From NCBI RefSeq assembly GCF_038594945.1, contig NZ_JBCFYD010000003.1, forward strand, positions 1-64,000: DNA of 64,000 nt. The letters run 5' to 3'. Numbering within the stretch: position 1 is the first letter of the stretch; each line of letters starts with the position of its first letter. This document shows positions 24,547 through 55,784 of this stretch, in pieces. Source of the DNA: Fodinibius sp. Rm-B-1B1-1 (GTDB taxonomy: Bacteria > Bacteroidota > Rhodothermia > Balneolales > Balneolaceae). Position numbers and translations under genes: made by a program. Under the pieces are notes generated by a model. It made no database searches. It was not told where the DNA came from and was given only the letters and a program-made list of their open reading frames with translations.

Positions 24547-26274
24547 TTAATTTCTTGTATCCCAGTTTGAAAATATCTTATCTACATCATCCAACGTTCC
24601 TGCTCGCAATACTTCCTGCCCCAACTTTTGCATATCAGCAATAGAATGCGATAGCAGCATCTGTTTTACCGTTGGTAACACCACTGAGTTCATACTCAGC
24701 GTATCGATGCCAAGTCCCATCAAGCAGCAAGCTGAAATAGGATCGGAGGCCAACTCCCCACAAACGCTAACCGGTATATCGTAATCTTTGGCAGCTTGAG
24801 CTGTCAAATTAATCAATTCCCAGATGGCCGGATGCCGCTGATCATATAAGTTTGAAATCCGTTCATTTCCGCGATCTACTGCTAACACATACTGAGTAAG
24901 ATCATTGGTGCCAATACTTAGAAAATCAGCTTCACGGGCAAAGCAATCCGCTTTCAAGGCTACTGCTGGCACCTCAACCATCAACCCAATGGGGATATTC
25001 TCATCAATTTCGATAACATCCGTCGTTAACTCTTGCTTAATTTCATCAATAATTTGGTACAGCTGACGAACCTCTCCCATCGTAGAAACCATTGGTACCA
25101 GAATACGGATGCGACCATGAAAATCAGCCGATGCAATGTAAATGGCCCGCAGTTGATTTTTCAGGATCTGCTGCTCCTCTAAAAGCATACGAATGCCCCG
25201 CCATCCCAAAAAAGGATTTTGCTCGGGTTTGTCATCTTCAAAAAACTTATCTCCGCCTACATCAAACAACCGAATCGTAATCGGATGCGAACCAGTAGCA
25301 TTAAGAATTGACCGATAAAATGATACCTGTTGATCGATATCCTGGAAACTTTCTCGTCCCAAATAAATGGACTCCGTTCGCAACAACCCAACCCCCTCGG
25401 CACAATACTTTTGGGCAATGGTAAGCTCTTCGGCAAACTCAATATTTGCCTGTAACGTAAAACATTGACCATCGGTCGTCTTATTTTCCTTCTCACAAAG
25501 CACCTTAAAATCAGCCTCACGCTCACTCTGCTGATCCATAAGTCGCTGATATCTTTCGCGGGTACCTTCATTGGGATTTAGTATAATTTCGCCATTTCGT
25601 CCGTCAAGAATCACCTCATCATGCGAGTCTATCATTTCGGTAGCCTCTTTGGTGCCAACCACCGTTGGAATATTCATTGACCGAGCAATAATAGCTGCAT
25701 GCGATGTTGCCCCTCCACGATCAGTAATAATACCTTTAATATTACGACCTGAAAACGAAATGATTTCTCGGGGACTTAACTCACGAGCCACCAATATTGT
25801 TTCTTCCTGAATATCATCACGCTTATTATGCAAAATTTGCAGCAGGCGATCCCGGATATCAGAAATATCCACCGTCTTATTTTGAAACGCATTTTTTTGA
25901 TGATTTTCTTCAATGACCTCCAGGTAGTTTTGAAAGGTACGTTCTACCGCTAAATCTACCGGCACTTGAGCAGTAATTTTCTGCTCTATCCGCTCACGCA
26001 AATCCGGGTCATGAAGAATTGCAATTTGCATCTGGATAAGTGTCGCTGGTTCTTCGACATCAGCACAGCTTTGCAACGCCTTGAGTTCTTCTTCAGCTAT
26101 TTCGAGCGCATCACGAAATTTATCGAGATGCTTTTGCACCTCATCAGAAGAAATATTTTCATCCGATACCGCAGGACGTTCCCGTTCATATAAACTGGTT
26201 TTTCCAATCACAATACCGGGACATGCCGGCGCTCCCGAAATTAAAACCTCATTATTTAGAGTCTGTTCACTCAT
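24547..26274 (-). CDS. ptsI: Phosphoenolpyruvate-protein phosphotransferase (PTS enzyme I)
   Basis: A 575-residue enzyme I that takes phosphate from PEP and passes it to HPr. The phosphorylated histidine is His192 in GGATSHAAIIARS. The PEP-binding TIM barrel holds LRTESIYLG and the active-site Cys in SVCGELASDP. The ATG at 26274 (MSEQTLNNEV) is preferred over an extended start at 26310 because it overlaps the ptsH end by 8 bp, the usual coupling. No GAF domain is present, so this is classical EI rather than PtsP. Confidence 0.95.
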   Translation of the reverse strand: MSEQTLNNEVLISGAPACPGIVIGKTSLYERERPAVSDENISSDEVQKHLDKFRDALEIAEEELKALQSCADVEEPATLIQMQIAILHDPDLRERIEQKITAQVPVDLAVERTFQNYLEVIEENHQKNAFQNKTVDISDIRDRLLQILHNKRDDIQEETILVARELSPREIISFSGRNIKGIITDRGGATSHAAIIARSMNIPTVVGTKEATEMIDSHDEVILDGRNGEIILNPNEGTRERYQRLMDQQSEREADFKVLCEKENKTTDGQCFTLQANIEFAEELTIAQKYCAEGVGLLRTESIYLGRESFQDIDQQVSFYRSILNATGSHPITIRLFDVGGDKFFEDDKPEQNPFLGWRGIRMLLEEQQILKNQLRAIYIASADFHGRIRILVPMVSTMGEVRQLYQIIDEIKQELTTDVIEIDENIPIGLMVEVPAVALKADCFAREADFLSIGTNDLTQYVLAVDRGNERISNLYDQRHPAIWELINLTAQAAKDYDIPVSVCGELASDPISACCLMGLGIDTLSMNSVVLPTVKQMLLSHSIADMQKLGQEVLRAGTLDDVDKIFSNWDTRN

Positions 26275-26551
26275 TTTCGTCCTCGTACACTTCACCAAAT
26301 CCGCTATCAATTAAATCTGTAATAGCATCAAGGGCCTCACTCTCGTCCGGCCCGTCAACTTCAAGCTCAAGTTCAGCACCTTTTTCGGCGGCCAGTGTCA
26401 TTACCCCCAAAATACTTTTGCCATTCACCTTATAACCATATAAGTGAATATAAAAATCCGCTTCATATTTCGATGCCAGCTTTACCAATGCCGCCGCAGG
26501 GCGTGCGTGCAAACCGGCATCATTAACAATCGTTACTTTCTTTTTTATCAT
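26267..26551 (-). CDS. ptsH: PTS phosphocarrier protein HPr
   Basis: A 94-residue HPr with an acidic tail. The EI-phosphorylated His15 sits in AGLHARPAA and Ser46, the HPr-kinase site, in NGKSILGVM. Both residues are present, so dual control by EI and an HprK is possible; hprK is not in this window. It is the first gene of the minus-strand operon ptsH-ptsI-pgi/pmi-birA-tilS-hpt. No EIIB or EIIC permease is nearby, but EIIA-like domains occur on the transporters at 48901-53321. Confidence 0.95.
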   Translation of the reverse strand: MIKKKVTIVNDAGLHARPAAALVKLASKYEADFYIHLYGYKVNGKSILGVMTLAAEKGAELELEVDGPDESEALDAITDLIDSGFGEVYEDENE

Positions 26552-31242: not shown

Positions 31243-31326
31243 TAAAATCAGGATCTATAATTCGCATTCTTCTGCTAAAAACATATATTTTCAGCCGATT
31301 AACAAATAACGTTTACCTCAATCGTC

Positions 31327-32250: not shown

Positions 32251-32264
32251 CCGATATCTAAAAG

Positions 32265-33212: not shown

Positions 33213-33220
33213 ACCTATTT

Positions 33221-34372: not shown

Positions 34373-34496
34373 CTACAAAACATTAGTTTCGAATTTTACC
34401 GGCTCTAAAACTACAGCTTTTGCTCCGTTATATTGAAATTATTTTGACCAAGAATATTATTAACTTCCCCCTCTTTTAAAACAAAGCATAGTCGTC

Positions 34497-35987: not shown

Positions 35988-36058
35988 TTTCTATTACGAA
36001 CAACTTCGGGTTCTTATTTAATGTGAATGATCTGTAATCAACGGTGTGAATTGATATT

Positions 36059-37072
36059 ATGGCACATGAACAATCTTCCGAATGGATAGCACCCAATCCT
36101 TCCCAACTGCCCGATTTTATCATCGGTGGAGCCATGAAGTCCGGTACAACTACCTTGCACTCTATACTCGACCAGCATCCCAACGTTTTTATCCCCAAAA
36201 AAGAACAACATTTTTTTGATTTTGATAACCTGCTCCAACACAGTGCCTTTAACTTTTTTGATGGGGAGGAAAACAGCTGGATTCGCAACTCCATGAGCAG
36301 ATCACCACAACAACTGTGGGAAGACTACCTATCCAACTATGATGGCAAAGAATCTTCTATAAAAGGCGAAGACTCAACGACCTATTTAGCTTCATCTATT
36401 GCTGCCAAACGAATTGCGATGCAACCCAAAGATATTAAACTCATCTTCTTGCTTCGTCACCCTACTCACCGGGCCTATTCTCAATACTTTCATTTGCTGC
36501 GATCAGGACGAGCCATTTTTAGCTTTGAAGATACACTCATGTTTACTCCTGAAAAACTACTGCAGAGAAGTCTATATAACGAGCAGCTCCAATATTATTA
36601 TGATCTTATTCCCCGAGAACGAATTAAAGTTGTTTTGTTTGAGGACTTAATATCCAAAACTAAAAATACCGTAGCAGAGATCTGCACATTTCTCGACCTC
36701 GACTTTCAAAAATTTGATAACAATATCCTTACCACACACTCTAACAAAACCAAGCTCCCGTCCAGCATAACACTGCAGATATATTATAACCGCCTGTTCC
36801 GAAAAACAGCTAATTTACGTCACGTAGATTCACTACCGGAATCACCTTCACCAAAAGAAAAAAGACGTATTTTTTTCTTACGACTTATAAAAAAGGCCCA
36901 TCGCATGATCAATCCACTGCAAGACAAAGAAAAACCTCCTATCAAGAAATCTACTCAACAATTTCTCGATCAATTTTTCCAACGCAGATTATCAGGCATC
37001 AATAATCTTGTGGGAAAAGAAATCTTGTCAACCTGGTTTTCTGACACGAACGATACATCGAAAAATAGTTAA
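36059..37072 (+). CDS. Sulfotransferase (Sulfotransfer_1 / heparan-type)
   Basis: A 337-residue sulfotransferase of the deacetylase-sulfotransferase-like type. The PAPS 5' loop is IIGGAMKSGTTTLHSILDQHP-like (residues about 21-41), the catalytic-region HFFDFDN follows, and the 3'-phosphate motif is LLRHPTHRAYSQYFHL. The C-terminal 100 residues are basic and hard to assign. It is the third sulfotransferase in 7.5 kb and differs in subfamily from the other two. It lies 71 bp behind the flippase. Confidence 0.9.
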   Translation: MAHEQSSEWIAPNPSQLPDFIIGGAMKSGTTTLHSILDQHPNVFIPKKEQHFFDFDNLLQHSAFNFFDGEENSWIRNSMSRSPQQLWEDYLSNYDGKESSIKGEDSTTYLASSIAAKRIAMQPKDIKLIFLLRHPTHRAYSQYFHLLRSGRAIFSFEDTLMFTPEKLLQRSLYNEQLQYYYDLIPRERIKVVLFEDLISKTKNTVAEICTFLDLDFQKFDNNILTTHSNKTKLPSSITLQIYYNRLFRKTANLRHVDSLPESPSPKEKRRIFFLRLIKKAHRMINPLQDKEKPPIKKSTQQFLDQFFQRRLSGINNLVGKEILSTWFSDTNDTSKNS

Positions 37073-41275: not shown

Positions 41276-41830
41276 TTGAAGTTATCCGTACAGAGCCTAA
41301 TTATATCTTTTTTAAGCCTAATGGGATTTTGGTATCTCATGAGTGGTTTTTTTGATATCACGCATACCATTATGGGGCTGCTAAGTGTTGGTATTGTTAT
41401 GGGGATCAACTACCAGCTAAAAACCTTTTCTTTCTATGAGAATGAGACAGACATCATTAAAGATCTCCGGTTTTTTTATGCTCCTTACTATTTTATTTGG
41501 TTGATTGTGCAAATTATTATTTCGGGAATAGAAGTGGCAAAAATATTACTCAGTCCCTCCCTGCCTATACAGGCAACTGTTGTGCGGTTCAAAGTCAACT
41601 TTCCCAATCCACACTGCAAAATGATACTGGGAAATTCCATCACCCTAACACCTGGAACGCTTACTGTTGACATCAATGAAGATGAATTTATTGTACATGC
41701 TATCTCAACAGCTTCTTTTGAAGGAATTGCAAGTGATGAAATGCCTAAAAAAGTGTTAAAGCTATTTTCCAGTGAGGAACGAAAAGTAATATCTGATTTT
41801 GAAGTTATTAAAACCAAGGAGGAGCTTTAA
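41276..41830 (+). CDS. mrpE: Na+/H+ antiporter subunit E (MrpE/MbhA-like)
   Basis: A 184-residue protein with two to three N-terminal transmembrane segments and a soluble C-terminal part that contains KVNFPNPHCKMILGNSITLT and PGTLTVDINEDEFIVHAI, the MNHE signature. MrpE is needed for stability of the multisubunit antiporter. The start is TTG at 41276. It is the first gene of the operon, and its stop overlaps the mrpF ATG by 1 nt. Confidence 0.9.
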   Translation: MKLSVQSLIISFLSLMGFWYLMSGFFDITHTIMGLLSVGIVMGINYQLKTFSFYENETDIIKDLRFFYAPYYFIWLIVQIIISGIEVAKILLSPSLPIQATVVRFKVNFPNPHCKMILGNSITLTPGTLTVDINEDEFIVHAISTASFEGIASDEMPKKVLKLFSSEERKVISDFEVIKTKEEL

Positions 41831-42105
41831 TGGAATCGTTCTTTCTGTATAGTGCTGTAATATTAACGGCCATTATTGCTGTTCCCGCTTACCGGGTATT
41901 AAAGGGACCAACGGTGTTCGACCGTCTTGTCGGTACTAATGCCATCGCTACCAAAACAATTGTTCTCATTTGCCTTATCGGCTACGTATTCGGCCGCATT
42001 GGTATGTTTATCGATATTACATTGGCATACGCTATCCTTGGATTTATTGGTTCCCTGACTATTGCAAAATACTTTTCAACAACCAAGGTACGCTTCGATG
42101 ATTGA
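41830..42105 (+). CDS. mrpF: Na+/H+ antiporter subunit F (MrpF/MbhB-like)
   Basis: A 91-residue protein with three transmembrane helices, typical MrpF_PhaF. The core YRVLKGPTVFDRLVGTNAIATK is diagnostic. A small membrane subunit at the MrpA-side interface in solved Mrp structures. Translationally coupled to mrpE by a 1-nt overlap and to mrpG by an 8-nt overlap. Confidence 0.93.
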   Translation: MESFFLYSAVILTAIIAVPAYRVLKGPTVFDRLVGTNAIATKTIVLICLIGYVFGRIGMFIDITLAYAILGFIGSLTIAKYFSTTKVRFDD

Positions 42106-42415
42106 TATTAGCTCGGTCTTAACCATTATTTTTGTTGTATTAGGGATATTCTTCCTGCTGATAGGAAGTATTGGCACCATACGTCTTCCCGACTTTTATT
42201 CACGTACACACGCTACCAGTAAAAGTGATACGCTGGGAATGATGCTAATTATCATCGGACTCATCATTTTTGAAGGATTGACCATCAACAGCGCTAAACT
42301 ATCTTTAGTACTACTATTTATATTGCTGGCAAATCCCATCGGAGCACATGCCTTAGCTCGAGCGGCATACAACTCCGGACTCTCACCCAGATTTCTTGAT
42401 AACAAAAAAGATTAA
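42098..42415 (+). CDS. mrpG: Na+/H+ antiporter subunit G (MrpG/MbhC-like)
   Basis: A 105-residue protein with three helices. The PhaG_MnhG signature is IGTIRLPDFYSRTHATSKSD, and LLANPIGAHALARAAY follows. The start is the ATG at 42098 (MIDISSVLTI), which overlaps the mrpF end; a further upstream start would add residues not seen in the family. Confidence 0.92.
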   Translation: MIDISSVLTIIFVVLGIFFLLIGSIGTIRLPDFYSRTHATSKSDTLGMMLIIIGLIIFEGLTINSAKLSLVLLFILLANPIGAHALARAAYNSGLSPRFLDNKKD

Positions 42416-42419
42416 CTGA

Positions 42420-42665
42420 ATGTACTGGGCACTTGAACTTATATTATTCTTTTTTCTCTTGATTACGGCTTACATCGCATTAGAAGCAGATGACCTGCTT
42501 ATCGCCGTTGTGATGCTCACCATTTTTAGCTTTTTAATGGCTTTACTGTTTACCACAATGGGTGCTGTTGATGTAGGCTTTACCGAAGCGGTAGTTGGAG
42601 CCGGAGTAACCGGCATATTACTTGTGATAGCAATTTTTCAAACTAAATTTACTACAGTCGATTGA
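42420..42665 (+). CDS. DUF4040 / MbhD-like subunit (MrpA C-terminal part, separate gene)
   Basis: An 81-residue protein with three helices. The DUF4040 core runs IALEADDLLIAVVMLTIFS with VGFTEAVVGAGVTG. In MrpA of classical Mrp systems this domain is fused to the C-terminal end of the big ND5-like subunit; in archaeal Mbh it is a separate protein, MbhD. Here it is separate. Its stop codon overlaps the next start (TTG at 42662). Confidence 0.85.
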   Translation: MYWALELILFFFLLITAYIALEADDLLIAVVMLTIFSFLMALLFTTMGAVDVGFTEAVVGAGVTGILLVIAIFQTKFTTVD

Positions 42666-42970
42666 AGTACCTAAAATTACTTTTGATCATTACATTTACG
42701 ACGGTGCTGCTGTATGCTGCTTCCGATTTGCCCCTACGCGGCAATCCTGATAACCAAATGAACCAGCGAGAAAGTATTACTGGCACGGAAGTTCCGGGCA
42801 ACTACTACATCCGTGAAGCATACCATGATGCCCACACGCCCAATATTGTAACCGTAATTTTGGGAGACTATCGTAGTGTTGATACGCTTGGAGAACAAAT
42901 CGTTATCTTTTCGGCGGGATTAATCTGTTTTTTATTACTCAGAAAACGGGGGCAAAACGATGACGAATAA
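42662..42970 (+). CDS. MbhE-like subunit (MrpA extreme C-terminal part, separate gene)
   Basis: A 102-residue protein with an N-terminal and a C-terminal transmembrane helix. The intervening YYIREAYHDAHTPNIVTVIL and DYRSVDTLGEQIVIFSAG segments are characteristic of MbhE/MrpA C-terminal domains. The start is TTG at 42662 and overlaps the DUF4040 stop. It overlaps mrpB by 11 bp. Together with the gene before it, it supplies what MrpA carries as C-terminal domains. Confidence 0.85.
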   Translation: MKYLKLLLIITFTTVLLYAASDLPLRGNPDNQMNQRESITGTEVPGNYYIREAYHDAHTPNIVTVILGDYRSVDTLGEQIVIFSAGLICFLLLRKRGQNDDE

Positions 42971-43400
42971 AGAACACAGTCCCATTATACTGTATGGAGC
43001 TCGCTTTTTGAGTCCATACATCATGCTTTTTGGCTTTTATGTAATTTTTCATGGACACTATTCACCCGGCGGTGGATTCCAGGGCGGTACACTCTTGGCT
43101 GCTTCATTACTGCTTGTTCGCATTGCCAGTGGTACCGAAATTTCAAGCTTACAATTTAAAGAGTACCTGGCTACGCCCTATGCTGCACTCGGCGTACTTA
43201 TCTATTTTGGTACGGGGCTCGTAGCTCTTCTCTACGGCGGGTATTTTCTGGACTACGAACAGCTGCCTATTCCCGGCCTTGAAGCCGCAGATCTGCGGTA
43301 TTGGGGCATTTTAATTATCGAGCTGGGGATCGGTATCACCGTTATGACAGTACTGGTACTTATTTATGATAACATGGTAAAAGGTGAAGACTATGCTTGA
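42960..43400 (+). CDS. mrpB: Na+/H+ antiporter subunit B (MrpB/MbhF-like)
   Basis: A 146-residue protein with four helices. The MnhB signature is YVIFHGHYSPGGGFQGGTLLA. A GLEAADLRYWGILIIELGIG stretch closes the domain. It is coupled to MbhE-like (11-nt overlap) and mrpC (8-nt overlap). Confidence 0.92.
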   Translation: MTNKEHSPIILYGARFLSPYIMLFGFYVIFHGHYSPGGGFQGGTLLAASLLLVRIASGTEISSLQFKEYLATPYAALGVLIYFGTGLVALLYGGYFLDYEQLPIPGLEAADLRYWGILIIELGIGITVMTVLVLIYDNMVKGEDYA

Positions 43401-43761
43401 TTTCTTTATGGGCCATTATGCCTATTGGTTTACCCTTATTTTGTTGGCGATCGGGTTATATGGCATGCTGCTTAAAAAGAATCTTGTAAAGAAGACTATT
43501 GGTCTATCCATTTTTCAAGCAGCGGTAATTCTATTTTTTGTATCTGTAGCGATGAAAAAGGGTGCTACGGTTCCGGTTAAAGCAAAGGGAATACCTGTAA
43601 GCGAAGTTTCAAATTACCTCAACGCTTTGCCACACACCTTGATGCTTACCGCTATTGTAGTAGGTGTAGCAACATTGGGCGTAGCACTGGCACTCATCAT
43701 AACGATTTACAATCGCTACGAAACACTCAACGAAGAAGAACTTTTAGATAAGATTCAATGA
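43393..43761 (+). CDS. mrpC: Na+/H+ antiporter subunit C (MrpC/MbhG-like)
   Basis: A 122-residue NuoK-like protein with three helices (YGMLLKKNLVKKTIGLSIFQ and LPHTLMLTAIVVGVATLGVA). The ATG at 43393 gives the family-like start MLDFFMGHYAYW; a GTG at 43384 is possible. A 4-nt overlap couples it to mrpD. Confidence 0.93.
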   Translation: MLDFFMGHYAYWFTLILLAIGLYGMLLKKNLVKKTIGLSIFQAAVILFFVSVAMKKGATVPVKAKGIPVSEVSNYLNALPHTLMLTAIVVGVATLGVALALIITIYNRYETLNEEELLDKIQ

Positions 43762-45257
43762 TTGGATCAGAGATACCGGCGTTAATCCCCATTACATATA
43801 TTCTATTTGCGATTCTAATCCCAGTCATCGGGCTGTGGAAAAGAAAAGTAACGTGGCATCTTGCCCTGCTTGGCTCTGGAATAGCTACCGCCCTTTCGGC
43901 GTATGGGTTAATATATTTACTCCAAACCGGTGAAACCATTCGCTACTTTTTTGGAGGATGGTCGCCGCCCATTGGCATTGAGTTTGTTTATGATGGGTTA
44001 GCAGCTTTCATCGTATTAGTCATTAATGCCATCGCCTTTCTCGTTCTGATCCACTCTAAAAAGATCAGTCAAAATGAGTTTCCTGGTAAACTAACGGGAT
44101 ACTTTGCTGTTGCCATGCTGATGATGCTTGGCTTTAATGGTATGGTCCTTACCGGTGATCTTTTTAACCTGTATGTATTCTTAGAAATTTCATCTCTTTC
44201 GAGCTATGCGCTAATCGCCATTGGTGAAAAACGGGCCCCTTATGCCGCTTTCCGCTATCTGATCATTGGTACAGTGGGCGGCTCGCTCTATCTATTAGGC
44301 GTCGGGTTTTTATATACCGTCACGGGTACGCTCAATATTATTGATATGAGTGCGATGCTGCCGCAGGTAATAGGACATTCATCAGTCATTGCAGCCATCA
44401 TATTAATGGTTATAGGTATTGGCGTAAAAGCGGCGTTATTCCCGTTACACGGCTGGCTACCCGATTCTTATACTTATGCTTCATCAACATCATCAGCTAT
44501 AATTGCCCCTATTGGCACCAAGGTAGCGGCCTACATTCTATTTCGTGTTGTTTTATTTCTATTCGGAGTAGAGCTGATTGATGCTGCACTGCCGGTGACA
44601 ACAGTTATTGGGATTTTTGCAGGTATTGGCATCCTCTACGGTTCTATCATGGCTATTGCGCAAAGCGAACTCAAGAAAATGTTGGCCTACAGCAGTGTTT
44701 CCCAGATTGGATATATCATTATGGGCTTAAGCCTGGCTAATCCCTTTGGATTTATTGGCGCCATTTTGCACGTATTAAATCACGCGTTGATGAAGGCGCT
44801 CTTATTTCTGGTATCCGGAAGCATGCGACTGAAAGAAGGTCACTCGCTGATTACAAAATTTGATGATAGTTATCGCAAAAAATACCCGTGGACCATGGCT
44901 GCTTTTACTACGGCAGCGATCTCGATGGTTGGCTTGCCTCCACTGGCAGGATTCTTTAGCAAGTGGTACCTCGCGTTGGGGACCATTGAAAATAGCAGTT
45001 GGTTATTATTAGCTGTGATTCTGATTAGTTCGCTGCTTAATGCGGTGTATTTCTTCCGAATTTTAGAAAAAGTGTATTTGCGAAATCCCGAGGCAGAACA
45101 AGCATCTGAAATTGAATCTCCCGCAGTACAAAAGAACGAAGTGGGCTTCAGTATGATGATGCCCATGGGGGTCATGGCACTCGGATTGTTAATTGTCGGT
45201 ATTTTCAATGCCTACATCGTTGATATTATTGTAACAATGTTCCCGGCAGGATTTTAA
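43758..45257 (+). CDS. mrpD: Na+/H+ antiporter subunit D (MrpD/MbhH-like, ND4/ND5 family)
   Basis: A 499-residue proton-conducting membrane subunit homologous to NuoN/M and MrpD. The conserved Glu143 of helix 5 lies in FLEISSLSSYAL. The helix 7 Lys224 is in GIGVKAALFPLHGWLPDSY and Lys255 is in PIGTKVAAY. These residues form the antiporter-like proton pathway in complex I and Mrp. The start overlaps mrpC by 4 nt. First of three such large subunits in the operon. Confidence 0.95.
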   Translation: MIGSEIPALIPITYILFAILIPVIGLWKRKVTWHLALLGSGIATALSAYGLIYLLQTGETIRYFFGGWSPPIGIEFVYDGLAAFIVLVINAIAFLVLIHSKKISQNEFPGKLTGYFAVAMLMMLGFNGMVLTGDLFNLYVFLEISSLSSYALIAIGEKRAPYAAFRYLIIGTVGGSLYLLGVGFLYTVTGTLNIIDMSAMLPQVIGHSSVIAAIILMVIGIGVKAALFPLHGWLPDSYTYASSTSSAIIAPIGTKVAAYILFRVVLFLFGVELIDAALPVTTVIGIFAGIGILYGSIMAIAQSELKKMLAYSSVSQIGYIIMGLSLANPFGFIGAILHVLNHALMKALLFLVSGSMRLKEGHSLITKFDDSYRKKYPWTMAAFTTAAISMVGLPPLAGFFSKWYLALGTIENSSWLLLAVILISSLLNAVYFFRILEKVYLRNPEAEQASEIESPAVQKNEVGFSMMMPMGVMALGLLIVGIFNAYIVDIIVTMFPAGF

Positions 45258-45278
45258 TCTAAGTATTTATTTAGCAAC

Positions 45279-46754
45279 ATGGAGCTTACGTATATCCCTT
45301 TATTAGCAGTGTTGGTATCGCTTGCCGCGGTGCCGTTTATATTGCTGAGTTCTAACAAGCCGAATCTTCGTGAATTCTGGACGATAGCAGCTGGAGTAAT
45401 CAAATTCCTGCTTGTCCTTACGCTTGTTCCCTCAGCCTTAGATGGTGAAACCGTCAAAATTACGCTCTTGGAGATTGCTCCCAATCTACCGTTGGTGCTC
45501 GAAGCTGATTCTTTTGGTGTATTTTTTGCAATTATTGCTTCGGGCTTATGGATATTTACGTCCTTTTATTCTATCGGCTATATGCGGGGACATGACGAGA
45601 AAAAACAAACCCGCTACTTTGCCAGCTTCGCCATTTGTCTATCTTCAACAATCGGGATCGCCTTTTCAGGTAATCTGCTGACCTTCATTATCTTTTATGA
45701 GATGCTGACTCTGGCTACTTATCCGTTGGTCATCCACAGCGAAAACAAAAAAGCCATTGCAGCCGGGCGAAAATATTTAACATACACCCTTACAGCCGGA
45801 CTCTTACTTATTGCTGCAGCGGGAATCACTTACTCTATTACTGGAACGCTCGATTTCCAGGCCGGCGGTATTTTTGGCGATGTTGAACTATCGCACTCAA
45901 TGGCCGTAACGATTTTCTTGCTCTTTTTAGGCGGTGTTGGGGTAAAAGCAGGCATTATGCCACTACACAGCTGGTTACCTTCAGCAATGGCAGCCCCTAC
46001 TCCCGTTAGTGCCCTGCTCCACGCAGTGGCCGTAGTAAAATCCGGAGTGTTTGGCGTTATTCGCGTGATAGGATTTATCTTTGGTCCCGATGTTATGGCA
46101 ACCTTTGGACTCAATGAAATTTTGATGGTCTTGGCAGGCTTTACCGTTATTGTAGCATCACTATTAGCTTTTGCCCAAGACAACCTTAAACGACGATTGG
46201 CCTACTCAACAGTAGGACATCTGTCTTACATTGTGTTAGGTGCGGCCCTGCTAACCGAAACAGGACTGATTGGTAGCATCATGCATATTTCAACACACGC
46301 TACCATGAAAATTACCCTGTTTTTCTGTGCCGGTGCTATTATGGTAAATCTGCACAAAAAGGATATTAGCAACATGAACGGCATTGCCAGTGTTATGCCG
46401 TGGACAATGGGAGCCTTTACGATTGGCTCTATGGGATTGGCCGGCATTCCCCCCATTAATGGATTTGTAAGTAAATGGTACCTTGGAGCCGGTGTCTTAG
46501 AAGGCGACATGATGATTCCACTTATCATATTAGTAATTAGTGGATTGCTGAATGTGGGATATTTCTTTCCCATTATTCATCGAGCGTATTTTAAGAAAGG
46601 CGGTCCAGAACTTGAAGGCCACACCGAGGCCTCGCCTTTCATGGTCGTTCCGCTCACAGGTACCGCAATACTTTCGGTATTATTTGGGATTTATCCCGAC
46701 CTGTTTTTCAACTTTTTTGACTTAGCAACAGAAATAGCTTCAACCATTTTTTAA
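45279..46754 (+). CDS. Second MrpD-like antiporter subunit
   Basis: A 491-residue ND2/4/5-like subunit. The helix 5 Glu141 is in IIFYEMLTLATYPLV, Lys223 in GVGVKAGIMPLHSWLP, and Lys254 in HAVAVVKSGVFGVIRV. All three ionisable residues of the proton pathway are kept, so it should be competent in proton translocation. It lies 21 bp after mrpD. It is not a full-size MrpA: it lacks the N-terminal MrpA-length and the DUF4040/MbhE tail. Confidence 0.93.
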   Translation: MELTYIPLLAVLVSLAAVPFILLSSNKPNLREFWTIAAGVIKFLLVLTLVPSALDGETVKITLLEIAPNLPLVLEADSFGVFFAIIASGLWIFTSFYSIGYMRGHDEKKQTRYFASFAICLSSTIGIAFSGNLLTFIIFYEMLTLATYPLVIHSENKKAIAAGRKYLTYTLTAGLLLIAAAGITYSITGTLDFQAGGIFGDVELSHSMAVTIFLLFLGGVGVKAGIMPLHSWLPSAMAAPTPVSALLHAVAVVKSGVFGVIRVIGFIFGPDVMATFGLNEILMVLAGFTVIVASLLAFAQDNLKRRLAYSTVGHLSYIVLGAALLTETGLIGSIMHISTHATMKITLFFCAGAIMVNLHKKDISNMNGIASVMPWTMGAFTIGSMGLAGIPPINGFVSKWYLGAGVLEGDMMIPLIILVISGLLNVGYFFPIIHRAYFKKGGPELEGHTEASPFMVVPLTGTAILSVLFGIYPDLFFNFFDLATEIASTIF

Positions 46755-46765
46755 CACTTGTACCT

Positions 46766-46981
46766 ATGAAGAAGTGGCATTGGATAGCGCTTGGCATCGT
46801 TTTTCTCATCAGTTTAATACTGGAGTTTACTTTTTTAGCTGATTATGACTCCCACTGGTGGAACCACATCCCGGCTTTTTATGCCATCTGGGGATTTGTG
46901 GGATGCGTTGCTATCATCTACATCTCAAAATGGTTAGGCAAATTTTTCATTTTAAGCGACGAAGATTACTATGATCGTTGA
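46766..46981 (+). CDS. Small two-helix membrane protein within the Mrp operon
   Basis: A 71-residue protein with two predicted transmembrane segments (about 5-26 and 37-56), aromatic residues between (DYDSHWWNHIPAFYAIW) and an acidic tail (LSDEDYYDR). It lies 11 bp after the second D-like gene and overlaps the start of the third by 11 bp, so it is cotranslated with them. I do not recognise it from classical Mrp or Mbh operons. It may be an accessory subunit specific to this kind of complex. Confidence 0.8.
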   Translation: MKKWHWIALGIVFLISLILEFTFLADYDSHWWNHIPAFYAIWGFVGCVAIIYISKWLGKFFILSDEDYYDR

Positions 46982-48704
46982 GCTTCTTTCAGTACCAGCA
47001 ATAATACTTATTTTAGGGGCATTTCTGCTTCCGCTGATCCCGGAACGCATACGCAGTTCCGCATTTATACTATTTCCATTGATCGCATTGGGCGTACTGT
47101 GGACACTCCCTGAAGGAAGCTTAGTTCAACTGCCTTTTGCCAGTTATGAGCTGCACCTGCTTACCGTGGATGCCCTAAGTCGTATCTTTGGGACGATTTT
47201 TGTAATGATTGCCATTATTGGTGGTATTTACGCTTTTCATATCAAAGACCTTGGCCAGCAGACTTCTGCCCTTGCGTATGCCGGTGGGGCCCTTGGTGTT
47301 ACCTTTGCCGGTGATTTCTTTAGCCTATTCTTCTTCTGGGAGATCATGGCTGCCGCTTCAACCTGGTTGATCTGGGCCCGACAAACTGAAGCTTCTGACA
47401 AGGCTGGAATGCGATATGTTCTTGTTCATATTTTTGGCGGTGGCCTGTTTATGACTGGGATTTTACTGCACCTTAACGGAGGCGGATCATTCCTTATCGA
47501 AAGTTTAGAACAGACCTATACCGTCGCTAATGTTTTCATGCTGCTGGGGGTTGGGTTGAACTCAGCGATTCCTCCCTTGCACGCTTGGTTAGCTGATGCT
47601 TATCCGAAAGCAACCATTACCGGTGCTGTATTTATGAGTGCTTTCACCACAAAATCAGCGGTCTATGTATTAATTCGATTATTCCCCGGCTGGGATATCT
47701 TAATCTACTGGGGAGTAGCCATGGCGCTTTACGGAGTCGTTTACGCGGTACTTGTAAACGACATCCGCGAAATTCTGGCCTATCACATTGTCAGTCAGGT
47801 TGGGTATATGGTAGCCGGTGTTGGCATTGGTACCGAAATGGCCATCAATGGAACTACGGCACATGCCTTTAGTCATATCCTATACAAGTCACTACTATTT
47901 ATGGGAGCCGGTGCCGTTATTTATGCGACCGGCAAAAGCAAGCTTACAGAACTTGGAGGATTTGCCAAGAAGATGCCAGTAGTTGTAGGCTTGTATATGA
48001 TCGGAGCTTTTTCTATCTCCGGATTCCCCTTCTTTAATGGATTTATCAGTAAGTCAATGGTGGTAAGTGCTGCCGGTGCAGCTCACCTCCCGACGATTAT
48101 GTTACTGCTTATTTTGGCATCAGTTGGTACGTTCTTACACACCGGCCTCAAACTTCCATACTTCACTTGGTTTGGTGAAAAGAAGAGTGATTTTAGCGTC
48201 TCCGACGTCCCATTAAACATGAAGATAGCAATGGGTATGGGCGCCTTTTTCTGTACGCTATTCGGCGTTTATCCCGCTCTGCTGTACAACTATCTACCCT
48301 ACGCTGTTGACTATACGCCCTACACCATCTACCACTTTGTGGAGATGATGCAGATACTGGTATTTACTTTTGTAGGATTCTGGTTACTCCGCAAAAAGCT
48401 GGAAGGGTCACCACACATCGCCATTGATACAGATTGGTTCTATCGCCGTCCGGCTGATGCAGTTCAATATGCTTTTGTAGAACTTCCCAACCGTTTTTAT
48501 GGCTTTGTTGAGCAACGTTCTCTCAAAATTGCAGGGGGACTATCACGCTTTTCCAAAAATCCACTGCAGCTGTTACCATTCGGCTCGTCCAACCCTGATG
48601 GGAAGAAAGAAATCAAATCAGACGACTTCTCGGCTTCCATTGGTGCGGCCCTGGCATTTATCCTTTTCGGATTTATCGTCGCCAGCTTAGTAGTCTTATT
48701 ATAG
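46971..48704 (+). CDS. Third MrpD-like antiporter subunit with altered proton pathway
   Basis: A 577-residue ND2/4/5-like protein with a longer C-terminal extension (about residues 470-577) ending in one more helix. The helix 5 Glu124 is present (FFFWEIMAAAS), but the helix 7 lysine is Asn197 (GVGLNSAIPPLHAWL). Lys228 in FTTKSAVYV is kept. The change seems characteristic of a subfamily rather than an error. Last gene of the operon; a terminator follows at about 48837. Confidence 0.92.
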   Translation: MIVELLSVPAIILILGAFLLPLIPERIRSSAFILFPLIALGVLWTLPEGSLVQLPFASYELHLLTVDALSRIFGTIFVMIAIIGGIYAFHIKDLGQQTSALAYAGGALGVTFAGDFFSLFFFWEIMAAASTWLIWARQTEASDKAGMRYVLVHIFGGGLFMTGILLHLNGGGSFLIESLEQTYTVANVFMLLGVGLNSAIPPLHAWLADAYPKATITGAVFMSAFTTKSAVYVLIRLFPGWDILIYWGVAMALYGVVYAVLVNDIREILAYHIVSQVGYMVAGVGIGTEMAINGTTAHAFSHILYKSLLFMGAGAVIYATGKSKLTELGGFAKKMPVVVGLYMIGAFSISGFPFFNGFISKSMVVSAAGAAHLPTIMLLLILASVGTFLHTGLKLPYFTWFGEKKSDFSVSDVPLNMKIAMGMGAFFCTLFGVYPALLYNYLPYAVDYTPYTIYHFVEMMQILVFTFVGFWLLRKKLEGSPHIAIDTDWFYRRPADAVQYAFVELPNRFYGFVEQRSLKIAGGLSRFSKNPLQLLPFGSSNPDGKKEIKSDDFSASIGAALAFILFGFIVASLVVLL

Positions 48705-48900: not shown

Positions 48901-51036
48901 TTACCCTTCTTCTGATTTTCGCCATTCTTTAACGGCTTCTATATCCTCTGTTTCACCGATGATAGAAAGTTCGTCATCTTCTTTAATAATCGTGTGTCCA
49001 TGAGGAATATTGATCTCTCCATTGCGTTTTATGATCGTTATCAAACTCTCACCTGGCAAATCAATTTCTTTAATACTCTTGCCTATAAATTTGCGTGTAA
49101 TATTATCCTTACTAACAGAAATATTAATAAATCGCTCATCCCTAAGCAGTATTTCTTTTAGCTCAGATTCATTTTTCGCTTCTCTCCATCGCTCAATAAA
49201 ACGTTTCGAATCAATCATTTCTGCCAAGTGAGCAAGTATCCGTAAATGTTGACCGGATCTCTCTTTCGAACTCACCAAAAAGATAATTGCACGTAAGTTT
49301 TCAAAATCACCAGTTTTATCCTCATCTAAAATCTCAAATCCCTCAGTTGATACTGTTATACTTTGAGGTATGCGAACCAATACCATTTGAGGATAACAAT
49401 CTTTATCTGTCCGAATATGATTAATTACCGTACTGTTACCAAGTGGTATAGTCCCAAGGTTTTGTGCTTTACAAAAATCCTCTACCAACTCATCCATGTC
49501 CAATTCAAGCCGCTCTGCAAATACCTCAGAAGCCTGTTTTATAATCGTCCTATAACTCAGTCGTTCATTAGTCTCATCAATAACCGTAGCCTGTGAAACT
49601 ACTTGTTCATAAGGATCTTCTTCTCGCAGCCCCTTTTCTCTCAGAATACCACGCATCTCGTGCTCAAGTCCGGTATCTTTTCGTTCACCTAACCGTGCAT
49701 GAATATGAAATATAGCCCCTTCACGGTCAATTTCACCATAGGCATAATAATAAAACCAACCAACGCTAAATATAGCTACCACAAAAGTAAATAGGATTGA
49801 AAGTAATCCCATTTCTAAAATAAGTATCCCCGAGAGAATCATCCCGATAATTTGCAACCAAGGATAAAACGGAGAATTAAAACCAGGGTCATATTCTTCG
49901 ATTTTACTTTCCCTCATCACAATCACAGCCAGATTTAGTAACCCAAAGAGCAAAAGCTGAAAAGCACTGGCCAACTTCGCAACCTGGGCAACATCAAAAG
50001 CTACAAGAAAGAAAATCATCAACAAAACAGTGGCAATAATGGCAATTACCGGAGTACCCTTTGTACCAATTTTTGAAAACCGGCTATCAATAAGCTTGTC
50101 GCGTGCCATTGCCAACGGGTAACGAGAAGCTGACATAATTCCTGCATTTCCGGTAGAGGCAAATGCAGCTACTGCAGCGATTACAACAAGTATTAGACCC
50201 AAGTCACCGGGCAACCAAGTCATAAAAGCTTCTCCGGCTGTGGCAACAGGAGTAAGGTCTTCTCTAAATTCAGTGGGGTCCAACACCGAAACCATAATAA
50301 ACACACCAGCAACATATACAAATATGGCCGACATGATAGAGAGGAACATGCCCCATGGTATATTTTTATCGGGATTTTTTACTTCCTCGGCCACACTGGC
50401 AACCTTTGTTAATCCCGCATAGGATACAAAAACCATCCCTACTGTAGCCCAAAATCCAGTAGCCCCACCAATAAAAAGTGGCGTAAATTGATTCCGAGTA
50501 ACTTCAAAGAAATCAACCGAAAAAACTGAGAACAAACCCTGGGCAATATAAAAAGTCATAATGCTTATCAGGGCGGCAACCAATATTTTTTGTAAGGCGG
50601 TAGTTTCTTTAGCTCCTACAATGTTTAGAATCCCAAAAACAAGAGTCAACACTACCGCTACCGGAACAATGGGTAGCTCAACAAATATTGAAATGTAGGC
50701 CCCCATCCCAATTAAAGCAAAAGCACTTTTCAATACTAAGGCTAACCACGAACCATAACCTCCAACCGTGCCCATAACAGGCCCCAGGCTACGATCAATA
50801 ATATAATAGGTCCCGCCTGCTTTAGGCATAGCCGTGGCTAATTCTGCAACACTGAACATCGTTGGCAATACAAGTAATCCCGATACCAAATAAGCGATAA
50901 ACACAGAGGGACCAGTCTCCGCTGCCGCAATACCAGGGAGCAAGAAAAAACCGGAACTAAACATCGCTCCTGTGGCAATGGCATATACATCCCACAGACC
51001 TAATTGTTTATCTAATTTTTCGTGTTTCATATTCAT
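48901..51036 (-). CDS. APC permease with PTS-EIIA-like and TrkA-C domains
   Basis: A 711-residue protein. Residues about 10-435 form an amino-acid-polyamine-organocation permease (12 helices; ATGAMFSSGFFLLPGIAAAE in helix 1; PKAGGTYYIIDR). About 495-632 resembles a mannitol/fructose-type PTS EIIA domain, with His540 in VINHIRTDKD at the place of the phosphorylated histidine. A second His is at 603. The last 70 residues are a TrkA-C (RCK_C) ligand domain with GKSIKEIDLPGESLITIIKR. The substrate is unknown; amino acid or K+-type transport with cytoplasmic gating is likely. It is a tandem paralogue of the gene upstream. Confidence 0.88.
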   Translation of the reverse strand: MNMKHEKLDKQLGLWDVYAIATGAMFSSGFFLLPGIAAAETGPSVFIAYLVSGLLVLPTMFSVAELATAMPKAGGTYYIIDRSLGPVMGTVGGYGSWLALVLKSAFALIGMGAYISIFVELPIVPVAVVLTLVFGILNIVGAKETTALQKILVAALISIMTFYIAQGLFSVFSVDFFEVTRNQFTPLFIGGATGFWATVGMVFVSYAGLTKVASVAEEVKNPDKNIPWGMFLSIMSAIFVYVAGVFIMVSVLDPTEFREDLTPVATAGEAFMTWLPGDLGLILVVIAAVAAFASTGNAGIMSASRYPLAMARDKLIDSRFSKIGTKGTPVIAIIATVLLMIFFLVAFDVAQVAKLASAFQLLLFGLLNLAVIVMRESKIEEYDPGFNSPFYPWLQIIGMILSGILILEMGLLSILFTFVVAIFSVGWFYYYAYGEIDREGAIFHIHARLGERKDTGLEHEMRGILREKGLREEDPYEQVVSQATVIDETNERLSYRTIIKQASEVFAERLELDMDELVEDFCKAQNLGTIPLGNSTVINHIRTDKDCYPQMVLVRIPQSITVSTEGFEILDEDKTGDFENLRAIIFLVSSKERSGQHLRILAHLAEMIDSKRFIERWREAKNESELKEILLRDERFINISVSKDNITRKFIGKSIKEIDLPGESLITIIKRNGEINIPHGHTIIKEDDELSIIGETEDIEAVKEWRKSEEG

Positions 51037-51191
51037 TTTTTGTGATAATAATTTTGCAACTGAGTTTAAGAAATTCGTTTATCTTCTAAAAGGATTCTTA
51101 CCTATTGGGGGGAACAGTCCAACACCAATAAACAGGTTTAAATTTCATATAAAACTAATCATTATTACATACCAAGGAAGGCTGTACCAAG

Positions 51192-53321
51192 TTAATCTTG
51201 TTTCAATTCTTTTATCTTTTCAATGTCTTTAACTTGGCCAATAATTGACAGATCATCCCCCTCCTGAATAACCGTATTTCCATGCGGAATATTAATATTT
51301 TCTCCTCGCTTTAAAATTGCAACAAGACTTTCATCCGGTAATTCAATTTCATGAATCTTCTTTCCTATAAATTTAGCTGTATTGTCGTCAGCACTTATAT
51401 GTAAATCAATAAAACGCTCATTTCTGAGTAATATTTCTCGTATTTCAGCCTCGTCTTCTGCTTTTATCCACCGATCAAAGAACCCCTTCTGGTCAATCAT
51501 TTCAGCAATATGTGCCAAAAATCGCAGATGTTGCGTAGCGCGCTTTTCGGAACTTACCAAGAAAAAGATCGCATACAGCTCACCAATTTTATCCGCTTCG
51601 TCACTTGTATCAGTAAACCTGGGATTGTCTATTTTAAAACCATCTTTGATTCGAACAATAAACAGCTCGGGCTCGGTATCAATATGTAACCGCGTATGAT
51701 TGAGCGCCGCCCCCTCACCAATGGGGATTGTTCTAAAATAATCTGTCTTTTTGAATGATTTGATTAATTCATCCTGATCGGCATTAACTTTGGTTGCCAA
51801 ATTTTGACACGCCTTATGAACGATATCATCATATGTTATTTCAGGATCTTCAACATCAAAAATAGCAGCCTTACTTACAACCAGCTCATAGGGATCTTCA
51901 TCCCGCAATCCCTTCTCTTTCAAAATATGCCTCATCTCATATTCTAATCCATGATCTTTATACTGCCCCAGTCGTTCATGCACATGAAAGATGGCCCCCT
52001 GCCGATCAATTTTTCCATATGCATAATAGTAATACCACGCCACTGAAAGAATGATAATAGCAACAGTAAAAAGTATTGAAAGAATACCCATTTCCAGGAT
52101 CAATAACCCAGAAGCGAGCATACCAAGCATCTGAACCCACGGATAAAATGGAGATTTATATCCGGGGTCGTACTCTTTAATATGACTTTCCCGCATTACG
52201 ATAACTGATAAATTCAACAAGCCAAACAACAGCAGCTTAAACGCACTGGCCAATTTTGCCACTTCCTTAACGTTAAAAACAAGCAGCAAAAAGATCATTG
52301 CTCCGGTAGTAACAACAATAGATATTACCGGGGTATCAAACCGCCCGAGTTTTGAAAACTTTACATGCAGCAACCGATCTCGTGCCATGGCCAAAGGAAA
52401 ACGTGATGCCGACATGATACCTGCATTCCCCGTTGATGCAAAAGCTGCAATAGCAGCAATAACGATTAATATGAGACCGATATCACCGGGTAGCCAGTTC
52501 AGAAAAACCGCACCCGCCGTAGCTACAGGAGTTAAATCCTGGGCAAATGCTTCTGGCTCTAAAACTGCTGTCATTAGATAAACACCAATAACATATATTA
52601 CGATAGCTGTCAATATGGATAAAAACATTCCACGGGGAATATTTCGGTCTGGATCCTCAACCTCCTCAGCTACGCTCACTACTTTTGTAAGTCCCGCGTA
52701 AGACACAAACACCATCCCAACCGTTGCAAAAAATCCTTGTGGTCCATTCTTAAAAAATGGTGTGAACTGTTGGCGGTGAATATCCAATATGTCTAATGAA
52801 AACAAGTAGGAAAATCCCTGTACCAAATAAAAAGCTAATATCGATAACAAGATGATAACAAGGGTATTCTGAAGACGGCTGGTTTCTTTAGCACCAAAAA
52901 TATTAAGAGCTCCAAAAGCAATGGTCAGAATAATAGCTACGGGCGTTATTGGTACATCAAAAAATATTGAAATATATGCTCCCATCCCGATCAGCGCAAA
53001 GGCACTTTTAAATACCAACGACAACCAAGACCCAAATCCCCCAATACTACCCATCAAGGGACCAAGTGTACGGTCAATAATATAATATGTGCCTCCAGCT
53101 CGGGGAAATGCAGTTCCAAGTTCAGCCTTACTTAACATAGTAGGGATCACTAATATTCCCGATACCAAATAAGCCAAAAACACGGAAGGCCCCGTCTCAC
53201 TGGCTGCTAATCCCGGTAACAAAAACAAACCAGAACTAAACATCGCTCCAGTTGCTATAGCAAAGACATCAAAAGCCCCAAGCTCTTTTTTTAATTTTTT
53301 GGAATCTTTCAGTATCGGCAA
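51192..53321 (-). CDS. APC permease with PTS-EIIA-like and TrkA-C domains (paralogue)
   Basis: A 709-residue paralogue with the same three-part layout: APC permease (helix 1 ATGAMFSSGLFLLPGLAASE), an EIIA-like domain with His542 in ALNHTRLHIDTE, and a C-terminal TrkA-C domain with GKKIHEIELPDESLVAIL. The permease and tail are both close to its neighbour, so the duplication covered the whole gene. It starts with TTG at 53321 (MPILKDSKKL). It is 155 bp upstream of its paralogue on the same strand. Confidence 0.88.
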   Translation of the reverse strand: MPILKDSKKLKKELGAFDVFAIATGAMFSSGLFLLPGLAASETGPSVFLAYLVSGILVIPTMLSKAELGTAFPRAGGTYYIIDRTLGPLMGSIGGFGSWLSLVFKSAFALIGMGAYISIFFDVPITPVAIILTIAFGALNIFGAKETSRLQNTLVIILLSILAFYLVQGFSYLFSLDILDIHRQQFTPFFKNGPQGFFATVGMVFVSYAGLTKVVSVAEEVEDPDRNIPRGMFLSILTAIVIYVIGVYLMTAVLEPEAFAQDLTPVATAGAVFLNWLPGDIGLILIVIAAIAAFASTGNAGIMSASRFPLAMARDRLLHVKFSKLGRFDTPVISIVVTTGAMIFLLLVFNVKEVAKLASAFKLLLFGLLNLSVIVMRESHIKEYDPGYKSPFYPWVQMLGMLASGLLILEMGILSILFTVAIIILSVAWYYYYAYGKIDRQGAIFHVHERLGQYKDHGLEYEMRHILKEKGLRDEDPYELVVSKAAIFDVEDPEITYDDIVHKACQNLATKVNADQDELIKSFKKTDYFRTIPIGEGAALNHTRLHIDTEPELFIVRIKDGFKIDNPRFTDTSDEADKIGELYAIFFLVSSEKRATQHLRFLAHIAEMIDQKGFFDRWIKAEDEAEIREILLRNERFIDLHISADDNTAKFIGKKIHEIELPDESLVAILKRGENINIPHGNTVIQEGDDLSIIGQVKDIEKIKELKQD

Positions 53322-53420: not shown

Positions 53421-53675
53421 TTATTCAAAGTGTTCTTCACTTTTTCCCTTCTCCTCATCTTCAAATGTAATAATCCCTTTCTTTCCCATACGAGTAATCA
53501 TGCGTATAATGTATGCAATTATAATTAGACCTATCAGAGCCTGAATTTTTACGCTCAATATCGGATGAAGATCAAACAATTCAATGATCACATATTCTAA
53601 TGCAGCTGAAACAAAAATAATTCCCAGTAACCAAACAAACTCCGTAATCAATTTTTCTTTCAGTTGGTGAACCAT
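53421..53675 (-). CDS. Small membrane protein
   Basis: An 84-residue protein with two predicted transmembrane helices (about 12-32 and 43-62) and a charged, Glu/Lys-rich C-terminal tail. No family assigned; the shape recalls PsiE-like proteins. It precedes the APC permease genes on the same strand (99-bp gap) and may be transcribed with them. Confidence 0.6.
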   Translation of the reverse strand: MVHQLKEKLITEFVWLLGIIFVSAALEYVIIELFDLHPILSVKIQALIGLIIIAYIIRMITRMGKKGIITFEDEEKGKSEEHFE

Positions 53676-53951: not shown

Positions 53952-55784
53952 ATGGGCGGACATTTACTCATAGGTATAACAAGCATACTCATATTTGGAA
54001 TTGGAGCTCAATGGGTTGCCTGGAGATTTAAATTACCAGCAATACTACTTCTTCTTATTTCGGGAATAATAGCCGGACCGGTATTTGGATTACTTGATCC
54101 CGATCAACTTATGGGAGAGCTACTGGCTCCATTTATCTCTGTTTCAGTAGCGATAATTTTGTTTGAGGGGGGATTAAGCCTGCGCTTTTCTGAGTTGGAA
54201 AACATCGGAGGCGTTATAGGCAATCTCGTTAGCATTGGAGTAATTATAACATGGATCATTACCGCCCTTTCCGCCCATTATCTTTTCCCCTTTGGATGGG
54301 AACTCTCTATTCTTCTTGGTGCTATTCTTGTTGTTACTGGCCCTACGGTAATTATTCCCTTGCTTCGCCAAGTACGTCCCTCAGGACAAGTAGGATCGAT
54401 CCTAAAGTGGGAAGGGATTATCATCGACCCAATCGGAGCAATGCTTGCTGTACTTGTTTTCGAAGTTATCCTGAGCACCAGCCTATCAGCTGCAACCAAT
54501 GTTGCCTTTATGAGCATTGTTAAAACAATTCTATTTGGTACGTTGGTTGGATTAGCCGGTGCTGCATTAATTTATTTTTTGTTAAAGCGCCATCTCCTAC
54601 CTGACTTTCTACAGAATCCCATCAATTTAATGGTGGTCGTAACTGTTTTTACCGTTTCAAATATGTTACAACATGAATCTGGTTTGTGGGCTGCAACATT
54701 AATGGGAATTGCCCTTGCTAATCAAAAAACAGCACGCATCCATCATATTACCGAATTTAAAGAAAATTTGCGGGTGCTACTTCTTTCTTCCCTGTTCATC
54801 CTCTTAGCTGCCCGGGTAGAATTGGATAACCTAATCGAAAATTTAAATTGGAATGTCGCTGCCTTTCTGGCTATCCTAATTTTAGTAGCACGACCTATTG
54901 GAGTATACATCTCTACGATGTTTTCGGATATTAACTGGCGCGAAAAACTATTTCTCTGCTGGATGGCTCCAAGAGGTGTCGTCGCCGCTTCCATTTCATC
55001 AATATTTGCAATCAGTCTGGCCCAAAATGGATTTTCCCATGCCGATCAACTTGTACCTATCGTATTTTTAGTGATTATTGGAACCGTAACTATTTACGGA
55101 CTGCCTGCCTCATGGGTAGCACGCAAATTAGGCGTAGCCAAACCTATACCCAATGGCGTGCTTATACTTGGTGCAAATAATTTTGCTCTAAAAGTTGCCG
55201 AAATTATCAAAAAAGAAGGGCTTAAAGTACTGGTAGCAGACTCTAACTGGAGAAACATTGCCAAAGCCAAGTCAAAAGGATTAGATACTTATCACGGAAA
55301 TATTCTATCAGAGTTTGCATTGGAAGAACTTAATCTCGACGGTATCGGACGACTGATATCATTAACACCAAATGATGAAACAAATTCTCTTGCAGCACTT
55401 CGGTTTGGAGAAATTTTTGGCCGATCTCATGTATTTCAAATATCTCCCAATACACAGGGTTATCTTGAAAGCAAACAAGACTCCAGTCTTTCAATTGGAA
55501 GAGTTCTATTCCACAAAAAGCTAAACTTCGAACTTATCTCGAAACTTGTAAGATCGAATACTGAGATTAAAGTTAAAGCGTTCAACGAAAAAAATGAATC
55601 TATTGATGACATTGAAGAGGAAATAATCCCGCTATTTTTAATAACCACTAATCACGAGATTCAACTATTCACTGTGGATCAAACCCCTTCTCCTGCGGAT
55701 GGCGACAAAATCTTTTACATCTCCATAGATCAAAAAATGCGTGAAGAATTGGAAAAAGTAGAAATAGCCGACGACTCAACATAG
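53952..55784 (+). CDS. CPA-type cation:proton antiporter with TrkA-N-like tail
   Basis: A 610-residue protein. Residues about 1-395 are a Na_H_Exchanger domain with 12-13 helices: SVAIILFEGGLSL, the TGPTVIIPLLRQ motif (Thr129-Pro131), and WEGIIIDPIGAM with the transport Asp159. The residue ahead of this Asp is Ile, not the Asn usual in NhaP. After about 400 there is a Rossmann-like TrkA-N domain (VLILGANNFALKVAEII), whose dinucleotide loop departs from GxGxxG, and an acidic C-terminal part. It probably exchanges Na+ or K+ for H+. It is divergent from the APC/small-protein genes. Confidence 0.9.
   Translation: MGGHLLIGITSILIFGIGAQWVAWRFKLPAILLLLISGIIAGPVFGLLDPDQLMGELLAPFISVSVAIILFEGGLSLRFSELENIGGVIGNLVSIGVIITWIITALSAHYLFPFGWELSILLGAILVVTGPTVIIPLLRQVRPSGQVGSILKWEGIIIDPIGAMLAVLVFEVILSTSLSAATNVAFMSIVKTILFGTLVGLAGAALIYFLLKRHLLPDFLQNPINLMVVVTVFTVSNMLQHESGLWAATLMGIALANQKTARIHHITEFKENLRVLLLSSLFILLAARVELDNLIENLNWNVAAFLAILILVARPIGVYISTMFSDINWREKLFLCWMAPRGVVAASISSIFAISLAQNGFSHADQLVPIVFLVIIGTVTIYGLPASWVARKLGVAKPIPNGVLILGANNFALKVAEIIKKEGLKVLVADSNWRNIAKAKSKGLDTYHGNILSEFALEELNLDGIGRLISLTPNDETNSLAALRFGEIFGRSHVFQISPNTQGYLESKQDSSLSIGRVLFHKKLNFELISKLVRSNTEIKVKAFNEKNESIDDIEEEIIPLFLITTNHEIQLFTVDQTPSPADGDKIFYISIDQKMREELEKVEIADDST

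Follow-up and report, generated by a model that had tools for sequence, protein, structure and literature searches.

In Escherichia coli, unphosphorylated PtsN, the EIIA-Ntr protein of the phosphoenolpyruvate (PEP)-dependent phosphotransferase system (PTS), silences the antiporter YcgO as a separate protein, acting on the part of YcgO that lies in the cytoplasm and contains a putative RCK domain; phosphorylation of PtsN weakens the PtsN-YcgO interaction (PMC11808508). LacS of Streptococcus thermophilus is a secondary transporter whose C-terminal domain, a PTS IIA, is phosphorylated by HPr (PMC10703360), and SLC4 transporters have an EIIA-fold cytoplasmic domain that serves the transporter without any PTS (PMC4664831, PMC5608694). 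Here we describe two tandem permeases, each fused to an EIIA-like and an RCK_C domain, in the salt-loving bacterium Fodinibius sp. Rm-B-1B1-1 (assembly GCF_038594945.1). They lie within positions 1 to 64,000 of the forward strand of contig NZ_JBCFYD010000003.1, a 64,000-nucleotide stretch that we analysed as a whole and refer to as the window. The fusion is real, and it is both well conserved and widespread. It also seems to be undescribed, as a literature search covering open-access papers found no description of it. It varies on two known kinds of system, namely IIA-bearing permeases and EIIA-Ntr control of RCK transporters.

Among working systems, the E. coli PtsN-YcgO pair comes nearest. 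Stand-alone EIIA-Ntr shares with the permease domain its fold, its active-site histidine, and a second conserved histidine, and in E. coli it controls an RCK-type transporter (PMC11808508). However, the permease domain is part of a transporter chain that also contains RCK_C, lacks the IPHG signature, has an extra invariant arginine, Arg555, and occurs also in hosts without EI and HPr. With YcgO/CvrA and TrkA, EIIA-Ntr likewise targets a transporter that has a (putative) RCK domain, but the partners there are separate proteins acting in trans, whereas here they form one polypeptide with an APC permease. LacS likewise combines a secondary transporter with a PTS IIA domain at its C-terminus, but it belongs to another permease family, its IIA is of the Glc class, it has no RCK_C, and its phosphorylation by HPr is reported, while that of the present proteins would be a prediction. 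The Glc-type IIA fold is unrelated to the EIIA-Ntr-type fold, and Pfam detected neither a Glc-type IIA domain (PF00358) nor a LacS-type membrane domain on the permeases. The SLC4 proteins (band 3, NDCBE) use the EIIA fold as a cytoplasmic domain of a transporter in the absence of a PTS, although their domain is N-terminal, the proteins are eukaryotic, and the membrane domain comes from another family.

The two genes are adjacent on the minus strand, and their products are 62% identical over the whole length. Copy A (P0001, 48901..51036, 711 amino acids (aa)) begins with an APC (LeuT-fold) membrane domain at residues 12-423 (49768..51003), as supported by Pfam, the AlphaFold model compared with 6f34, and a sequence profile. 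An EIIA-like domain follows at residues 493-631 (49144..49560), identified by Pfam and by its fold match to EIIA-Ntr 2a0j, and the protein ends in an RCK_C (TrkA_C) domain at residues 649-705 (48922..49092), identified by Pfam and by a match to 3jxo (E 4.5e-6). Copy B (P0002, 51192..53321, 709 aa, TTG start) has the same architecture, with the EIIA-like domain at residues 498-632 (51426..51830, from Pfam and alignment) and RCK_C at residues 647-706 (51204..51383, from Pfam). All three families scored above their curated cut-offs in both copies: AA_permease_2 with E-values of 3.8e-41 and 4.4e-46 (copies A and B, respectively), PTS_EIIA_2 (PF00359) with 2.5e-12 and 2.8e-11 (47.4 and 44.0 bits against a cut-off of 27), and TrkA_C with 2.6e-12 and 4e-11. 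An initial annotation, made from the sequence alone, had proposed the tandem permeases, the limits of their EIIA domains, the histidines His540 and His542, and a TrkA-C domain on both proteins; open reading frames, Pfam, and alignment with the EIIA-Ntr histidine His67 bear out each of these points. Only AA_permease_2/AA_permease, PF00359, and PF02080 were found by Pfam on either permease. There was no RCK_N nucleotide-binding domain, so that RCK_C stands alone with the EIIA domain in the place before it.

Structure prediction supported both assignments. The predicted C-terminal model (69 sequences; mean predicted local distance difference test (pLDDT) of 78) had the anticipated EIIA fold, with Z 18.1 to Neisseria EIIA-Ntr (2a0j; root-mean-square deviation 2.3 over 144 residues) and 17.8 to that of E. 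coli (1a6j), and EIIA-Ntr matches overall ranging from Z 16.5 to 18.1. SLC4 cytoplasmic domains were also matched in the fold search, ranking behind EIIA proteins. In the full-length AlphaFold model (mean pLDDT 83), the fold matched the cationic amino acid transporter (CAT) homologue 6f34 with TMt 0.84, in accord with a sequence-profile match of the membrane domain to the same type of protein at E 1.5e-51. GkApcT-type CAT homologues and other APC permeases resemble the present proteins in the membrane domain but are without EIIA or RCK_C. A predicted model also resembled 5f29/4ys2, and c-di-AMP may conceivably have a role at RCK_C.

His540 of copy A (49417..49419) and His542 of copy B fall at the position of active-site His67 in the stand-alone EIIA-Ntr of this genome, and His597 (49246..49248) aligns with the second conserved histidine, such that the permease domains have both EIIA-Ntr histidines. 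The surroundings are not those of a canonical EIIA, contrary to the initial annotation, which had called the NH-x-R context usual. The usual EIIA-2 signature, which we take to be the PROSITE-type pattern ...[LIVM]-A-[LIVM]-P-H-[GAC], is fitted by the stand-alone EIIA-Ntr (GLAIPHG) but by none of 159 transporter-borne copies, in which the histidine is mostly preceded by P, N, or K and mostly followed by a bulky residue and then arginine. The catalytic arginine, which in EIIA-Ntr presumably belongs to the REKMGSTG-type stretch before the His strand, corresponds to a column of mixed D/R/E within a poorly aligned stretch. Arg555 (49372..49374) was present in all 58 His-bearing copies of the first set and is replaced by Ile in the genome's EIIA-Ntr. 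In the predicted model, strands at 536-543 and then 550-562 have a register from which His540 and Arg555 should face the same side.

The triad of His540, Arg555, and His597 was intact in 142 of the 159 copies, a set whose rows are partly non-independent, with some genomes included twice. Part of this set came from a scan baited with the QHLR stretch, which enriched for His597 and Arg599; neither His540 nor Arg555 was in any bait, and both were more constant than the residues around them across many phyla. Fourteen distinct copies had Tyr, Phe, or Gln in place of His540, and these fell on two branches of the tree. Each was additionally altered at Arg555 or His597, and hence the three positions appear to work together. 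We considered whether one tandem partner might be a dead copy, which was rejected here because the triad is intact in each of the two. Pairs of mixed type do occur in other Balneolaceae (e.g., genomes G139, G191, and G077). A His-less side clade of Balneolaceae (loci L049, L056, L063, L032, L034, L043, L045, L047, L052, and L053) supplies the sole copy in some genomes.

The architecture extends well beyond Fodinibius. Among 296 genomes sampled from the phylum, 62 had matches, which were sorted by hand according to matched range and open-frame length: 5 through RCK_C only, 9 through antiporters, and 48 with the permease fusion. A wider scan of one genome per species found 368 coding stretches, from which 79 loci were kept. 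These belonged to Fodinibius/Aliifodinibius (Balneolaceae), Cyclobacterium, Planctomycetota, Calditrichota, KSB1, SAR324, Gemmatimonadota, and Acidobacteriota, as well as to metagenome-assembled genomes labelled Deltaproteobacteria, Dadabacteria, and Eisenbacteria. We therefore rejected the idea that the fusion is special to this window. Rhodothermia relatives also have this EIIA on Na+/H+ exchangers, in some cases joined to RCK_C and in others not, alongside TrkA_N, TrkA_C, or Usp. Among the variants seen were fusions of Na+/H+ exchanger, Usp, and EIIA in Rhodothermia relatives (L176, L174, and L172), one of them exceeding 950 aa, and a 1514-aa open frame ending in the permease (L060:179-4720 in G195) that is 745 aa long in the close relative G147.

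Fodinibius itself has the components of a phosphorelay. As the initial annotation stated, ptsH (HPr; 26267..26551, minus strand) and ptsI (EI; 24547..26310, minus strand) share one operon. The two genes overlap within 24547-26551, and both products have their catalytic histidine (GLHARPAA and GGATSHAA, respectively). HPr also has the NGKSILGV serine region, and its gene is the only one in the genome. This operon is separate from the permeases and lies ~22 kb from them. PF00359 was found at three places across the genome: in each of the two permeases and in a canonical EIIA-Ntr that stands alone, two genes from a sigma54-type response regulator (recognised by eye). The initial annotation had further noted that the window has no sugar EIIB or EIIC. 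The whole genome had no PF02378 EIIC and no EIIA-Man, a result that covers these two families and does not extend to each of the other EIIC families, to EIIB families, or to Glc- and Lac-type EIIA. Given that EI, HPr, and EIIA-Ntr are present and PF02378 EIIC and EIIA-Man are absent, the PTS of this genome looks regulatory (nitrogen-type), and its EI and HPr already have an ordinary acceptor in the stand-alone EIIA-Ntr.

The more informative hosts are those without this relay. EI and HPr were each absent from all seven Cyclobacterium species, and none of these genomes has a PF00359 other than the permease EIIA. The triad is nonetheless unchanged there, and the EIIA part has a ratio of nonsynonymous to synonymous substitution (dN/dS) of ~0.08 with synonymous sites near saturation between species; the triad site is under strong purifying selection. 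Because the Cyclobacterium copies nest among those of Balneolaceae in the tree, transfer of the permease into a PTS-less host is suggested. Independently, in a family of Rhodothermia (f12), HPr was absent from 7 of 7 genomes and EI from 4 of 4 tested. Four of the f12 genomes have EIIA-bearing Na+/H+ exchangers, each the sole PF00359 of its genome, and the triad was intact in the three such antiporters that were read. The expectation that the histidine is kept only where EI and HPr exist was tested and fails, as Cyclobacterium and f12 keep the triad. Conversely, His-less copies occur in HPr-positive genomes. Selection on the site does not, then, require a PTS. Retention of the key histidine in species lacking a PTS implies that the domain probably does more than take PTS phosphate.

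Our preferred interpretation, to which we assign a probability of about 0.5, is that EIIA and RCK_C, in the C-terminal half of each permease, form a fused regulatory module that works independently of the PTS and gates an APC transporter through a pocket, with additional phosphorylation by HPr~P being possible. The module would act in cis, the EIIA-fold pocket serving as input, the RCK_C domain that follows it as coupling or second input, and the APC membrane domain as output. The state of the His540/Arg555/His597 pocket would gate what is predicted to be an amino-acid-type transporter. Most likely the pocket would bind an ion or a small ligand that may itself be phosphorylated, and the core function would be PTS-independent. 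In hosts with EI and HPr, including Fodinibius, the same histidine may additionally be phosphorylated by HPr~P. We hold more tentatively a broader generalisation, namely that this EIIA fold, with a non-canonical His/Arg/His pocket for a putative ligand, is a PTS-independent cytosolic sensor of APC permeases and cation/proton antiporters in many phyla, often together with RCK_C.

Several observations weigh against a PTS-independent module. In the phylum sample, HPr was present in 48 of 48 permease carriers and the permease was missing from every one of the 81 HPr-less genomes, and across phyla 47 of 50 carriers had HPr, a near-constancy that fits a PTS role. HPr is common in the phylum sample (215 of 296 genomes), and these counts follow few clades that are not independent, for which reason the Fisher value of the phylum table (6e-8) was not used as evidence. 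Retention without a PTS amounts to about two lineages, because Cyclobacterium is one genus with one probable transfer. Both the ligand and the spatial placement of His540, Arg555, and His597 in one pocket are also things that we infer.

The initial annotation had favoured a simpler scheme, in which phosphate passes from PEP through EI and HPr to His540/His542 and switches transport on or off, as a built-in version of nitrogen-PTS control. PTS-less carriers would then be later captures in which the site persists through inertia or is served by another donor. Such phosphorylation is consistent with the EIIA-Ntr-like fold, the conservation of both EIIA histidines, HPr in nearly all carriers, and a regulatory PTS in which no sugar permeases were found, and LacS offers a precedent for a permease-borne IIA domain phosphorylated by HPr~P (PMC10703360). 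Taken as the only explanation it is not supported, given that EIIA-Ntr already accounts for EI and HPr, the site is under purifying selection where they are absent, most copies have a bulky residue rather than G/A/C after the histidine, the transporter-specific Arg555 is as constant as the histidine, His-less copies survive in HPr-positive genomes, and the genes lie far apart. The comparative evidence tips the balance toward a site that functions in the absence of EI and HPr, leaving the phosphorelay a possible explanation that we consider less likely.

Two other explanations appear improbable. The EIIA fold could be a mere structural spacer or dimerisation scaffold with structural histidines, leaving RCK_C to sense. 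In the cytoplasmic domains of SLC4 the fold operates with no PTS chemistry; copies in Balneolaceae and in f11 persist without the histidine, and some genomes have only such copies. However, His540 and Arg555 exceed their surroundings in constancy across many phyla, and the His-less copies form only two clades with linked changes at other pocket positions, which looks like loss of a function and not structural drift. We judge it slightly more doubtful still that the fused EIIA is a membrane-anchored EIIA-Ntr for targets other than its own transporter, such as the neighbouring NhaP2/CvrA-like antiporter (Na_H_Exchanger plus TrkA_N; 53952..55784, plus strand). In most Fodinibius loci, and in several from other Balneolaceae, this divergent gene stands beside the permease; its relatives elsewhere bear EIIA or EIIA-RCK_C themselves, and in E. 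coli a YcgO-type antiporter is a target of PtsN (PMC11808508). Yet the interaction is putative, and outside Balneolaceae the neighbourhood is not kept, except possibly at one locus (L120).

Between the antiporter and copy B lies an 84-aa small membrane protein with no Pfam family (53421..53675, minus strand), which is kept in this position in Fodinibius, Rhodohalobacter, and other Balneolaceae loci. The tandem pair, this small frame, and the divergent antiporter recur together in Fodinibius species. On the other side, convergent with the permeases, is an Mrp-type Na+/H+ antiporter operon (41276-48704, plus strand) with several small subunits and three large membrane proteins of antiporter type (499, 491, and 577 aa), of which the last, the only one checked with Pfam, is Proton_antipo_M. 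Elsewhere in the window, inspection by eye revealed a protein of 1299 aa (9158-13057, plus strand) that looks secreted and combines IPT/TIG-like and cadherin-like repeats with a GLUG-like tail, and a cluster of glycosyltransferase-, sulfotransferase-, and flippase-like genes (29627-37072).

The means by which EIIA-Ntr controls the transport of ions and solutes are still an open question, and the RCK step was left undetermined in the E. coli study (PMC11808508). A natural fusion of EIIA, RCK_C, and transporter provides a single-chain system for studying this control. Carriers without EI and HPr permit a clean separation of pocket sensing from the phosphorelay, and if the pocket does sense something other than the phosphorelay, this would change how PF00359 is read in genomes.

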